Below are positions 43,802 to 60,507 of a DNA stretch of 64,000 bases, piece by piece. Source of the stretch: Gammaproteobacteria bacterium (GTDB lineage Bacteria > Pseudomonadota > Gammaproteobacteria > SZUA-152); NCBI GenBank assembly GCA_029882975.1, contig JAOUJW010000018.1, forward strand, positions 1 to 64,000, given 5' to 3'. The notes below the pieces were generated by a model. It ran no database searches and was not told where the DNA came from. It saw only the letters and a program-made list of their open reading frames with translations. Positions within the stretch are counted from its first letter, which is position 1, and every line of letters begins with the position of its first letter. A program made the translations under genes and the position numbers.

Positions 43802-44233
43802 ATGAATAGATCCGATCCCATGCCGGCGCGAGTACGGTATCAGGAACGTTGGAACTTAATGTATTATTTGCGTGTTTTTGCCCAGCCTTCGGGCCAACTA
43901 CTGGGTCATTTGGTGGATATCAGCACAGAAGGTGCCATGATCATCAGTGATAAACCCTTGGCGGTGCATAAAGACTTTATTTTGAGTATGGAATTACCCA
44001 ACGCCCAAGGAAAAATTGAACCTGTGGTCATGAGCGCGAGTATCATCTGGAGTAAACTTGACGTCAATCCGTATTTTACCGATACAGGCATAAAACTCAT
44101 CGAGCCATCTACGCAGGCAGTGGAATCACTGCACCGACTAATCAAAGAACTCAAATCCTACGAATATACGGGACAAAGAATCGAACCCCCGGAGCCCGCA
44201 GAACTCAATCTGTATTTACAATTACCGGAATAG
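43802..44233 (+). CDS. PilZ-domain protein
   Basis: A 143-residue putative cyclic di-GMP receptor. The second PilZ motif, DxSxxG, is present as DISTEGAMII near residue 39; RYQER near 11-15 fits the RxxxR part at plausible spacing. The C-terminal TGIKLIEPS strand also fits the fold. GAGGA lies just before the ATG. It diverges from gspA and is followed by an S24-like gene. The window encodes at least two diguanylate cyclase domains that could supply its ligand. Confidence 0.85.
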   Translation: MNRSDPMPARVRYQERWNLMYYLRVFAQPSGQLLGHLVDISTEGAMIISDKPLAVHKDFILSMELPNAQGKIEPVVMSASIIWSKLDVNPYFTDTGIKLIEPSTQAVESLHRLIKELKSYEYTGQRIEPPEPAELNLYLQLPE

Positions 44234-44302: not shown

Positions 44303-44629
44303 ATGGCACTGCCCGGCTGTTCCGACACCACTGAACCGTTTGCCTTACGTGTGGTTGGCGACAGCATGTTGCCCGAATTCCACGACGGCCATATTATTAT
44401 TGTGGACCCATCCCATCCATTGTGTGATGGTGCGTATGCTGTTCTGGAGTATGAAGGCGAAGTACTGTTTGGACTGTACTCCCGACAAAATTCGCAACAC
44501 ACACTCAGGCACTTAAACAGCTCAGACGCCCCCGTCAGTCTCAATGGTCCCTTTGAGGTCAAAGGCGTGGTAGTGCAACGTTCCACCGGCCGGCGGCGAG
44601 ACCTCAAACATTATGAGTACGAACCATGA
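44303..44629 (+). CDS. S24/LexA-fold protein without visible catalytic lysine
   Basis: A 108-residue protein with the S24 peptidase core but no DNA-binding domain. The nucleophile region VVGDSMLPEFHDGHIIIVD (near residue 18) matches LexA and UmuD. Where LexA has the general-base lysine (EVTVKRL), this protein reads EVLFGLY, so self-cleavage is doubtful. GAAGGA lies 6 nt before the ATG. It stands between the PilZ gene and the convergent anti-sigma gene. No SOS box is visible. Confidence 0.8.
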   Translation: MALPGCSDTTEPFALRVVGDSMLPEFHDGHIIIVDPSHPLCDGAYAVLEYEGEVLFGLYSRQNSQHTLRHLNSSDAPVSLNGPFEVKGVVVQRSTGRRRDLKHYEYEP

Positions 44630-44643
44630 GCCAACTCTTCAGA

Positions 44644-46638
44644 TCAAAAATGGTACTGAATGATATCCGCCAAATGCCGGGTTTCCTTTAAACTTAAATC
44701 GCTGGCTACGGCGTAACTCAAGCCCTCATTCACGGAAAGACATACCGGAATTGCTTGGGATGTTTGCACGCATTGTTTTGATTTTGAACTCATCGTGGCG
44801 GCAGTAATAATCACACTGATTTTTTGCTTCTTACTGTTTTCGTAAATGGAATATAAGGCAAATTGTTCCTCCGTAGGCAGCAAGATGGAACCCACCCGTT
44901 TAAAACCGATCTCTGTCAAATCGTTACTTTGAAGATTTTTTCCGAGTCGCTTTGCCAGCCAAGAGATCAAATTTTGGTAACGTTGGCCCGCAGTTTCGAT
45001 CAAAGAGCGATCGTTTTTGGCGTAAAACTGGTGGGCATTTAAAACCAGTCGTTCCAGTTGCAGGTTAGAACCTCCCGTTTTCATTTGATCCGCCCCACCA
45101 CTGAGAATCCACCCCAAAATGAGTCCGGCTGCTGTAAAAGTAATGGCCGGTACCAACTGAGTTGCGCGAAGAGCTTGCCATAGATCAAGCGCAGCTTGAC
45201 TAAAGCTCTTTCCTAACCACATCACCGCTTTACCGACGGAATCAAATATATTATTGCTATGATCAATAACTTCTGCATCGCGGTAGGCGCGCTCTTCCTG
45301 TCGCCGTCGAATATGCTCAGCTGCGACCGGCAATACGATACGCCGGGGCTCCAATAAAACAGCGTATGGGCTTTTCTCACCGGTGTTATCTGCCTTCGCA
45401 CCTCTCTTCTGATCTTCGCGAACTACTTCCACCGGAATTTCCACCGGCTCTGTCGGTCCCAAAGGATCCTGCCGAGTACCGGGTGGTGCTTCGGCCTCAG
45501 CCTGTACTGCGGCCTCTGCCTGAACGGTCTCCACCGGAACTTCGGTCTCAGTCTCAGCCTGCACTTCGGTCTCAGTCTCAGCCTGCACTTCGGTCTCAGT
45601 TTCAGCCTGCACTTCGGTCTCAGTCTCAGCCTGTACTTCGGTCTCTTGAGCCCCAATCGTTATTTCGCTACCAAGCGGTGCCTCAAACTCCTGGGCATGA
45701 GCTTCATTCTTAACAGAATCATCATCCAGATCGATAACATTGTTGTCCGTTGGCGTGGAATTCGGATCTGCCGGCAACACCGATTCTGCAAACTGAATTT
45801 CTGCAGTCGCATCGGGTTGACCCAAAGCTTCTACGGTTTCAATGGCTTCCGGCAGCGGTCCTAATTCAATGATGGTGACTGTTTCAGGTTCGGAAACCGC
45901 GTCATGTTCCCCTACGTGTAACTCAGCCGGCGCTTGCTCAGAAGCTGCCGTTAGTTCCACGTTTGGAAAGACTTGCGATTCTATTGCTTCAGGTTTTTCC
46001 GTGTACGGAGGTTCTGGCGCAGCACTATTGCCCACAATATCCCCTGCCGGAACCACTACAGGAATTTCTTTTTTGTGTACTGGCATTTCATCTTTGATGA
46101 CAGGCACTTCATCTTTTCGTACGTCAATGTGTGCATCGGTCTGCGCGGATTTGGGTCCCGTGTGACTGGCCGGGGCTGGAGGTGCTGTTAAATTCAGTGG
46201 TGCGGGTTCATCATTTTCGGCTTCTTTCCCCTTCCACACGTTCTTTAGCTGCTCTAAATATGCGTTTGGTAACCAACGAGAACTGTAATAGGACATCGAC
46301 TCTCTCAGTGAATACCACCACTCCATTCCCGCAGTGCTTTCCAGGGAAAACAGATTGCGCGAACGTGACAATGAATTACCTGTATGAGATTGCAAATACC
46401 CCGATGCTTTACCACTGTACAACGCATCCAATATATGATCCGGTATCTTCTCTTCAATTAAATAATCGAACCGCTTGTGAAGTTTGTCGTTAATGAGTAA
46501 ATAATCGCGGATTTCCTCCGAACGTCCAGGCTCGCGAACGAACCGTTCTTCAACATTAATGGCCTGGGATTCGGTTAATTGTGCGTCAGTGTATGCGTGA
46601 ACTTCAGCAACAGATATGGGCTTGTTTGTGGTTTCCAT
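44644..46638 (-). CDS. Transmembrane anti-sigma factor with long acidic repeat insert
   Basis: A 664-residue protein encoded directly after an ECF-like sigma factor (TAATG overlap). The N terminus has the anti-sigma domain pattern (VAEVHAYTDAQLTESQAINVEERF). Between it and the single membrane helix (about 502-520, ITFTAAGLILGWILSGG) lies a cytoplasmic region of roughly 350 residues, very rich in Glu, Pro, Val, Ala and Thr, including four ETEVQAET-type repeats near 335-370. The periplasmic C terminus (AHQFYAKNDRSL..., WLAKRLGKNL, GFKRVGSILLP) matches transmembrane anti-sigma regulators, which are normally about 250 residues. No zinc-binding HxxxCxxC is visible. Confidence 0.85.
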   Translation of the reverse strand: METTNKPISVAEVHAYTDAQLTESQAINVEERFVREPGRSEEIRDYLLINDKLHKRFDYLIEEKIPDHILDALYSGKASGYLQSHTGNSLSRSRNLFSLESTAGMEWWYSLRESMSYYSSRWLPNAYLEQLKNVWKGKEAENDEPAPLNLTAPPAPASHTGPKSAQTDAHIDVRKDEVPVIKDEMPVHKKEIPVVVPAGDIVGNSAAPEPPYTEKPEAIESQVFPNVELTAASEQAPAELHVGEHDAVSEPETVTIIELGPLPEAIETVEALGQPDATAEIQFAESVLPADPNSTPTDNNVIDLDDDSVKNEAHAQEFEAPLGSEITIGAQETEVQAETETEVQAETETEVQAETETEVQAETETEVPVETVQAEAAVQAEAEAPPGTRQDPLGPTEPVEIPVEVVREDQKRGAKADNTGEKSPYAVLLEPRRIVLPVAAEHIRRRQEERAYRDAEVIDHSNNIFDSVGKAVMWLGKSFSQAALDLWQALRATQLVPAITFTAAGLILGWILSGGADQMKTGGSNLQLERLVLNAHQFYAKNDRSLIETAGQRYQNLISWLAKRLGKNLQSNDLTEIGFKRVGSILLPTEEQFALYSIYENSKKQKISVIITAATMSSKSKQCVQTSQAIPVCLSVNEGLSYAVASDLSLKETRHLADIIQYHF
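45539..45648 (-). repeat. 24-bp coding repeats in the anti-sigma gene
   Basis: Four tandem 24-bp units and a partial fifth (45539, 45563, 45587, 45611, 45635) encode the octapeptide ETEVQAET. Units differ by one or two bases, so copy number may vary by slippage. Because 24 is a multiple of 3, changes keep the frame and only alter linker length. Confidence 0.9.
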
Positions 46639-47099
46639 TAGACGGCTTCCGATGTAGCGGGAACCAATTGATTCTTTTTCATCTGTGCCCGCAAAGATAC
46701 ACGAGCGCCGTGAATATGATTGAGTAGTTCACCTAGGGAAATGTTTAATATGGTAGCAACATCTTTATAACCAAACCCTTCCAATGCAACCAAGAGAAAT
46801 ACTTGGGCCTGCAATGGCGTAAGTTGGTTCAGGTTTAATTGTGCGGCATCGGTGTGTTGCGAAAAAGACCGGCGCTGTTGCTTACTGTTAATCAAATCGT
46901 TGTGCAAATTATGAAAAACACCAAACACCCAGGCTTTAGCAGCCCCGTCCTCTTGCTGTTCCCACAAATAGGTCATGTCGGTGAGACAAGCAATACACTC
47001 AAACACCATGTCGTCAGCCAACTGCGCATCACTGACGAGCGCGTGCGCGTATCGACGCAAATATGGCAATGTATTCTCAATGGATTTTTTTACATCCAA
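46638..47099 (-). CDS. ECF-like sigma factor
   Basis: A 153-residue sigma-70-family protein. Region 2 reads LPYLRRYAHALVSDAQLADDMVFECIACL, and region 4 has TPLQAQVFLLVALEGFGYKDVATILNISLGELLNHIHGAR, the helix-turn-helix that contacts the -35 element. It starts at TTG 47099 with AAGGGG 9 nt upstream, suggesting low expression. The stop and the anti-sigma start share a base (TAATG), so the pair is coupled. No GGAAC-type autoregulatory promoter is evident in the 229 bp upstream. Confidence 0.85.
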   Translation of the reverse strand: MDVKKSIENTLPYLRRYAHALVSDAQLADDMVFECIACLTDMTYLWEQQEDGAAKAWVFGVFHNLHNDLINSKQQRRSFSQHTDAAQLNLNQLTPLQAQVFLLVALEGFGYKDVATILNISLGELLNHIHGARVSLRAQMKKNQLVPATSEAV

Positions 47100-47328
47100 G
47101 ATGGTGACCCCTTAGCTGCGATGAAGTCCCTGATAGCCCCGTCAATATTTTCCCTTTGTAATCAAACCCCCGCCTTATTCCTGGGCCTATGTAGGCAAAA
47201 CGGAAACTCCTGCAGCGAGTATGGGCTAAAACAGAGCAGATAGTTTTAGTTAGTTGGTTGTAAGCGTATATTTACAAGATGGGCTTTGCAACAAAAAACT
47301 GATTTTATTATAACGGTTAGAGATATAA

Positions 47329-59325: not shown

Positions 59326-60507
59326 TTAGTTATTTTTTTCAAACCGGCTCATAAGCTGAAACAAACCAAACGCAGCCATGAATAGCAAAGCAGCCACCCA
59401 AGAATTATCGTGGCCTACAGGAACAAATATCAATAACAAAATAAAAGAGCTGATCAAAACATTAACCAGCAACAGCGACAACAAACGGTTTTTCGAAATA
59501 CGCTTAAATAGAAAGAAACCCAATACGCCCACCGCAATCATCACCACCGCTAAAATAGCAATCAGACTGATCAGTGGGTTTTCCAAAGAATAGTCCAAGG
59601 GGTTAGCCGCTTTTAACGCCTGGGTAGCTGCCGCAATTTCATTCTGATCACCTATTTTTTCAGGAGGATCAAAAGGATATTTTGCATAATGAGCAACAAG
59701 ATCAGTCAGCACATAAGCTCTATCGACCTGGATTCGTTTTTTGGGTCGATTTTGATCGTCAATACGCCCTCCCAGCATTTTATTAACCACCGAGCCACCA
59801 CTCTCCAAATGTCCGAAAATGGTGTATGCACCATCCAAATGCGGTGCATCTCCCAACATAATACAAAAAGAACTCGAAGCGCTGTTGACGTTGTTATCCC
59901 AACGCGCCATGGTAAGCTTACCTTTTCGGTGTTTAATTTGGCTGAACTCACCAGGAATTTGTTTGATCAACTGCCGCTGAGATACGCTCAGCGGTGTACT
60001 ACGACTCTCCACTTGAGATAACTGAATCAGAAAACCCGGCTCGATACGAAAAAAATCAGTCGTATCGTACATTCCCGCTCGCACCATGTTAAGTATGTGT
60101 GTTACATGCTGAGGTGCAACATCGGGATACAAAGCCAACAGCAAGGGACCATAATTGGTAGACAGCACAATGTATTGATTGGATACCTTGGGATTTTGCG
60201 GATCCGCAACACCGGTTTCCTGCCACTGTGTCAGCACCGTTTGGCTGGTGGTTTTCGCGGCGTTTTGATCCCCTGGACTGGCGCTTTGTGCATTTAAACT
60301 CTGTGAATTTGTACTCTGTGAATTTGTACTCTGTGAATTTGTACTCTTTGCGCTCGTACTTTGATCATTTTGTTTTTCGATACTCAGAGCCTTGTCATAC
60401 TCCACCGCTTGCGGGGACACACTTGCAACAATGCAATACAGCATCGCAAGTAAGAGCACTGGTAATTTCACTACAACGGCATGCTGTTTAAGCGCTGGTA
60501 AACTCAA
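59326..60507 (-). CDS. Cyclophilin fused to a three-helix membrane tail
   Basis: A 393-residue peptidyl-prolyl isomerase. A signal-like helix (about 13-32) is followed by a Ser/Thr/Asn/Gln linker with STNSQ repeats (50-72), then a cyclophilin domain (about 108-270; FFRIEPGFLIQLSQ, SSSFCIMLGDAPHLDGAYTIFGHL). Three membrane helices follow (about 313-338, 345-362, 370-387). Cyclophilins in bacteria are normally soluble or carry only a signal peptide; the membrane tail is unusual. The start is TTG 60507 with GGGGGAG 6-7 nt upstream. Confidence 0.85.
   Translation of the reverse strand: MSLPALKQHAVVVKLPVLLLAMLYCIVASVSPQAVEYDKALSIEKQNDQSTSAKSTNSQSTNSQSTNSQSLNAQSASPGDQNAAKTTSQTVLTQWQETGVADPQNPKVSNQYIVLSTNYGPLLLALYPDVAPQHVTHILNMVRAGMYDTTDFFRIEPGFLIQLSQVESRSTPLSVSQRQLIKQIPGEFSQIKHRKGKLTMARWDNNVNSASSSFCIMLGDAPHLDGAYTIFGHLESGGSVVNKMLGGRIDDQNRPKKRIQVDRAYVLTDLVAHYAKYPFDPPEKIGDQNEIAAATQALKAANPLDYSLENPLISLIAILAVVMIAVGVLGFFLFKRISKNRLLSLLLVNVLISSFILLLIFVPVGHDNSWVAALLFMAAFGLFQLMSRFEKNN
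60287..60361 (-). repeat. 15-bp coding repeats in the cyclophilin linker
   Basis: Units of 15 bp (60287, 60302, 60317, 60332, 60347) encode STNSQ-type pentapeptides. The three central units are identical; the outer ones are degenerate. In-frame copy-number change would alter only the linker. Confidence 0.85.

Follow-up and report, generated by a model that had tools for sequence, protein, structure and literature searches.

Why should an anti-sigma factor of 664 amino acids hold its sigma-binding domain several hundred residues away from the membrane helix that anchors it? The question is raised by a pair of genes in the window, the 64-kb stretch of DNA analysed here, where the gene for a protein resembling an ECF sigma factor is followed by the gene for what we refer to as the giant anti-sigma. 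A sequence-only reading had described an ECF-type sigma/anti-sigma pair with a TTG start on the sigma gene and an enormous acidic linker between the sigma-binding domain and the membrane. It drew attention to a 24-bp repeat in this linker that could vary by slippage, and suggested that the sigma factor might be tethered far from the membrane. Both open reading frames, the TTG start and the ETEVQAET array are indeed present (Table 1). The protein is far longer than related anti-sigmas, which had been put at about 250 residues and typically have 254-283, and the suggestion of an unusual regulatory design is borne out. The linker, too, was correctly placed between the sigma-binding domain and the transmembrane helix, although it comprises 420 residues rather than about 350. 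It is the roles assigned to the repeat array and to the tethered sigma factor that need revision.

Table 1. Sequence features of the giant sigma/anti-sigma operon, in window coordinates.
Feature	Position	Strand	Details
Sigma-like protein gene	46638-47099	-	153 aa, TTG start
Giant anti-sigma gene	44644-46638	-	664 aa
Likely ribosome-binding site AAGGGG	47108-47113	-	8 bases upstream of the TTG; from sequence
N-terminal anti-sigma domain	46414-46638	-	aa 1-75
Acidic low-complexity linker	45154-46413	-	aa 76-495, 420 residues, net charge -47
24-bp tandem array, in frame ETEVQAET	45539-45645	-	4.5 copies, 96% matches
21-bp imperfect array, KDExPVx-type repeats	46057-46116	-	
Transmembrane helix	45094-45153	-	about aa 496-515; aligned to the helix of relatives, predicted from hydrophobicity
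Predicted periplasmic ectodomain	44647-45081	-	Cys pair C623/C633
GGAATAA, -35-like element of the canonical group	47175-47181	-	-10 GTT 14 bases downstream missing, ACAAA instead

The start of the anti-sigma gene overlaps the stop of the sigma gene (TAATG), and the two are translationally coupled. In the 153-aa protein, Pfam recognises PhyR_sigma2 (the best match) and Sigma70_r4_2; domains sigma2 and sigma4 are thus both there, with hallmark residues and part of the linker between them gone. The giant itself has no Pfam or NCBIfam match. At either end it matches the ordinary anti-sigmas (254-283 aa) encoded next to ECF sigma genes, its C-terminal part alone recovers short anti-sigmas with phmmer, and our A3 profile, of which the giant is itself a part, recovers it at E 4.5e-65. 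Its layout, an N-terminal anti-sigma domain, a single transmembrane helix and the periplasmic domain of the family, is that of ECF26-like/EcfR proteins. Only 14 bases separate the stop of the giant gene from a convergent gene (44303-44629, + strand) for a stand-alone 108-aa protein with a Peptidase_S24-like (LexA/UmuD-type) domain by Pfam and no evident DNA-binding domain, itself preceded by a PilZ protein gene at 43802-44233.

The family, as captured by a profile of the transmembrane helix plus ectodomain, was found in 42 of 369 genomes sampled across the class, 4 of 24 in the same family and 78 of 398 across the phylum; giants occur in three of these sampled genomes, two of which are metagenome-assembled. 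Besides the window's own genome (G000), which also carries a second, short pair on contig 4, these are G002 (JAKEGK01, MAG PMV_4.23), with an anti-sigma of 798 aa, and G004 (JAADGF01, MAG M_MetaBat.104), with one of 777 aa. Both belong to other genera in the family, and in each the giant is coupled to a sigma-like gene of its own. This recurrence of an identical layout rules out a frameshift or fusion of two genes, the artefact that the sequence-only reading had itself named. Its other worry, that close relatives might lack the linker, holds in part: in the same-genus genome G001 (91% complete) we found only a short canonical pair and no giant, but two other genera have one. A search of plasmids for the giant returned none. 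About 1 kb from the canonical pair of G001 there is a gene (L034, 11083-17247, + strand) for a protein of 2054 aa that is rich in CxxCH motifs and resembles a giant multihaem cytochrome.

In a FastTree phylogeny of the anti-sigmas all three giants group together (local support 0.99), and the sister group of this clade includes the short G001 protein and two others with linkers of 38-57 aa (support 0.976). The Cys pair of the ectodomain is common to giants and sister group and was otherwise seen only in L084 among the proteins examined. These relationships show a single origin of the giant architecture across three genera. A metallophosphoesterase gene adjoins the giant operon of G002 and is also found near that of the window. 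In a further genus of the family (g3) the same gene is followed by a different ECF sigma gene whose partner is a 209-219-aa anti-sigma-like protein with a weak DUF3379 match (L048, 2827-3961; also L049, L050, L051 and L056), so that this neighbourhood holds unrelated sigma/anti-sigma pairs in different genera.

How unusual is the linker? From anti-sigma domain to transmembrane helix it spans 420 residues in the window and 529 and 551 in the other two giants, as against 13-64 (median 19) in the 43 other homologues measured, about a twentyfold difference; L035, a 254-aa protein for which the automatic measure gave -48, was left out of this range. The longest linker outside the giants in the phylum-wide sample has 97 aa. 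It belongs to one of two family anti-sigmas (L151 and L152, from G694 and G668) with Pro/Ala/Glu-rich linkers of 91-97 aa, which are a milder, separate expansion at the same place. Large open frames elsewhere (442-633 aa) were considered as further giants and rejected as GC-rich read-through upstream of normal starts.

The 24-bp array turns out to be private to the window genome, and the long linkers of its relatives are unrelated in sequence, which rules out slippage in this array as the source of linker length. Tandem repeats occur elsewhere in the window as well: 15-bp repeats encoding STNSQ (60287-60360) form an in-frame array towards the N terminus of a membrane protein resembling peptidylprolyl isomerases (ORF 59326-60507, - strand), and a 103-bp unit is present in 2.3 copies at the contig edge (1-240), beside a tRNA-Met gene (205-281, - strand), possibly as an assembly edge effect or as repeated tRNA fragments.

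What the three linkers share is composition. All are acidic (net charges -47, -26 and -64) and rich in disorder-promoting residues, and they are probably disordered; AlphaFold models of the giant (pLDDT 33, from three sequences) are too poor to inform on this part. Between G002 and G004 identity is 72% for the sigma, 72% for the anti-sigma domain and 52% for the ectodomain but only 24% for the linker, no more than among shuffled linkers (22%, maximum 25%), and no conserved motif emerges from this comparison. Length and acidity have been kept without conservation of sequence, the pattern that a flexible spacer would be expected to show.

A pair in decay might look similar: after duplication, both sigma and sensor function would have been lost, and neutral expansion of repeats would have lengthened the linker. 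The lack of linker conservation, the recent repeat array in the window and the fast divergence of sigma and ectodomain (the window sigma sits on a branch of length 2.27 in FastTree) all fit this scenario. However, the overlapping frames are intact in three genera, and sigma and anti-sigma domain remain 72% identical between two of them even though synonymous sites are saturated, indicating that the pair is under selection. Linkers of similar length (529 versus 551) without similarity in sequence also count against decay, which we regard as unlikely. More improbable still is that the giant serves mainly as a membrane scaffold. In that case the linker would bind a third protein or cluster locally, and its sigma-like partner would be an adaptor uninvolved in transcription control. 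A long acidic linker in all three giants and a redesigned ectodomain would suit such a role, but a linker without any conserved motif would not; nearby genes show no evident client, and the anti-sigma domain is the best-kept part of the protein.

The apparent degeneracy of the partner sigma, common to all three giant pairs, is the point that the sequence-only reading missed. In region 2.2, a Gln present in 38 of 39 canonical partners is replaced by F, Y or R and an Arg present in 37 of 39 by C in all three; in helix 4.2, a Ser and an Arg found in all 39 have become N/L/L and G/S/S, respectively (the sigma of L066, with 15 mismatches, was excluded from the comparison because its 5' half is missing at the locus). 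We take the lost Ser and Arg of helix 4.2 to be -35 contacts and the lost Gln of region 2.2 to be a core contact. Across five hallmark positions each giant's sigma misses four, compared with at most two in any of 29 further ECF paralogues from the same four genomes, none of which has jointly lost the region 2.2 Gln and the Ser and Arg; single hallmark positions do deviate in some functional ECF sigmas. Leave-one-out profile scores tell the same story by domain: giants fall below canonical pairs for the sigma (99-126 versus 186-232 bits) and the ectodomain (59-95 versus 143-232 bits) and within the canonical range for the anti-sigma domain (60-64 versus 50-110 bits), suggesting that the sigma-binding part has been kept and that the sensor and the presumed transcription part have changed. 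In the window protein, moreover, sigma2 and sigma4 are only 42 residues apart, the spacing of Caulobacter PhyR (3n0r), whereas EcfG has 59 and canonical partners 56-68; about 16 residues are missing from the linker between the two domains, which reportedly passes through the active-centre cleft and the exit channel. Spacing is normal (58) in G002 and G004. The structure model of the sigma-like protein has the two-domain ECF fold at moderate confidence, and its matches in the PDB do not separate a sigma factor from a mimic.

Promoters differ too. Of the 46 sigma genes examined, 20 have GGAATAA upstream, where 1.1 would be expected, frequently with GTT 14 bases further on, in agreement with the published ECF26 consensus of -35 GGAATA and -10 GT (PMC6180224). 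In G000 and G002 the short pairs have the full GGAATAAA-N14-GTT pattern upstream, but none of the three giant operons does: the window retains only the -35-like half (Table 1), and neither half was found upstream of the G002 and G004 operons.

There are two principal ways to account for these losses. In the first, the protein is still a working ECF sigma whose promoter contacts have changed and whose contacts with core have changed in part. The anti-sigma would hold it, and the long linker would let the complex leave the membrane or offer sites to proteases or partners; release would follow from ordinary proteolysis or a conformational change, and the sigma might be activated by modification. 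Pfam recognises both of its domains, its helix 4.2 retains G-T and R-x(4)-AR in G002 and G004, where the two are identical, its best profile match is EcfG, a true sigma, and a shift in specificity would account for the disappearance of the old promoter. Some known ECF sigmas have an altered DAED motif and require phosphorylation (PMC8103513). Yet none of the 29 other ECFs shares the joint loss of Gln, Ser and Arg, the best candidate for a common replacement motif upstream of the G002 and G004 operons does not exceed shuffles, and the window protein lacks part of its sigma2-sigma4 linker. A working sigma is a serious possibility, only somewhat less likely than the reading below; a working sigma that is simply tethered far from the membrane is doubtful, given that hallmark residues are lost in all three pairs.

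In the second, which we prefer to a neofunctionalised sigma, to decay and to a scaffold while giving it only about a 40% chance, the protein is a sigma mimic, free-standing but kept on a long leash at the membrane, that takes part in partner switching in the manner of PhyR and NepR. Four observations speak for it: hallmark residues have been lost jointly, the window protein has the spacing of PhyR, the autoregulatory promoter is missing and the anti-sigma domain has been retained. There is a precedent in PhyR, a degenerate ECF fold that titrates an anti-sigma (PMC8103513). Against the mimic stand an incomplete match to PhyR, the normal spacing in G002 and G004, and the hallmark deviations tolerated singly by functional ECF sigmas. 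G004, where the canonical ECF26-like sigma and short anti-sigma are both absent, adds that the true partner must come from another group or that the mimic model is wrong.

The giant pair looks like a derived offshoot, in one gammaproteobacterial clade, of the common ECF26-like pairs of ECF sigma and single-pass anti-sigma, in which the anti-sigma gained its acidic cytoplasmic linker of 420-550 residues. If the partner is a mimic, the sigma would have been converted into an antagonist that no longer directs RNA polymerase and still binds anti-sigma domains. The mimic might occupy the giant's own anti-sigma domain and so free a genuine sigma; alternatively, the giant might hold the mimic until a signal arrives, whereupon the mimic would titrate another anti-sigma. 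The ectodomain would act as the sensor, and the flexible linker would allow a domain anchored in the membrane to pick up and swap partners within a wide radius in the cytoplasm. More tentatively still, this would amount to membrane-based partner switching outside the Alphaproteobacteria, in which a receiver-less mimic is coupled to an anti-sigma that, on a disordered cytoplasmic leash of 420-550 residues, captures sigma-type partners at a distance from the membrane and swaps them. Sigma mimicry would then have arisen outside PhyR, with its stages still visible, from canonical short pairs through the slightly longer linkers of the sister subclade to a giant linker with a degenerate sigma. Whatever the partner, the giant pair is a natural experiment on a very long, presumably disordered tether in an anti-sigma, in which length and acidity have been kept and sequence has not.

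How does the pair compare with known systems? Like the alphaproteobacterial PhyR-NepR-EcfG system, in which the sigma-like domain of PhyR, described as an ECF fold whose promoter and core regions are degenerate, titrates NepR (PMC8103513), giant pairs place an apparently degenerate ECF fold beside an anti-sigma gene. The window protein has the short spacing of PhyR, the G002 and G004 sigmas have an SGDA-type region 2.2, and sequence matches of the sigma-like protein in the PDB include PhyR sigma-like domains. However, it consists of sigma2 and sigma4 only, without a receiver domain and hence without a phosphorylation switch; the giant is a 664-aa membrane protein with a transmembrane helix rather than a small soluble one; and the operon has no genuine sigma gene. 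The PhyR_sigma2 match is not diagnostic, as the canonical paralogue scores higher, and by profile all three giants' sigmas match EcfG better than PhyR. Positions lost in these sigmas overlap those lost in PhyR no more than expected by chance (p = 0.38), and NepR Pfam matches of relatives stay below the cut-off. The sigma-like protein is not a member of PhyR, nor the giant of NepR; at most they work like them.

Closer in architecture are the ECF26 sigma/EcfR pairs, such as RpoE1-EcfR1 and RpoE4-EcfR4 of Sinorhizobium meliloti (PMC6180224), with which the giants share the order of sigma and then anti-sigma gene, the N-terminal anti-sigma domain, the single transmembrane helix and the periplasmic C-terminal domain. 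The short homologues described here share the GGAATA / GT consensus too. Giants differ from these pairs in linker length (420-551 versus 13-64 aa), in the lost hallmark residues of region 2.2 and helix 4.2, in the absence of the full promoter and in their strongly diverged ectodomain. Long disordered segments in membrane anti-sigmas have a counterpart in the SigI/RsgI systems of Bacilli and Clostridia, where the segment is extracytoplasmic. The giant likewise combines a membrane anti-sigma with a long, probably disordered segment; in the giant, however, that segment lies on the sigma-binding, cytoplasmic side, and the protein families differ.
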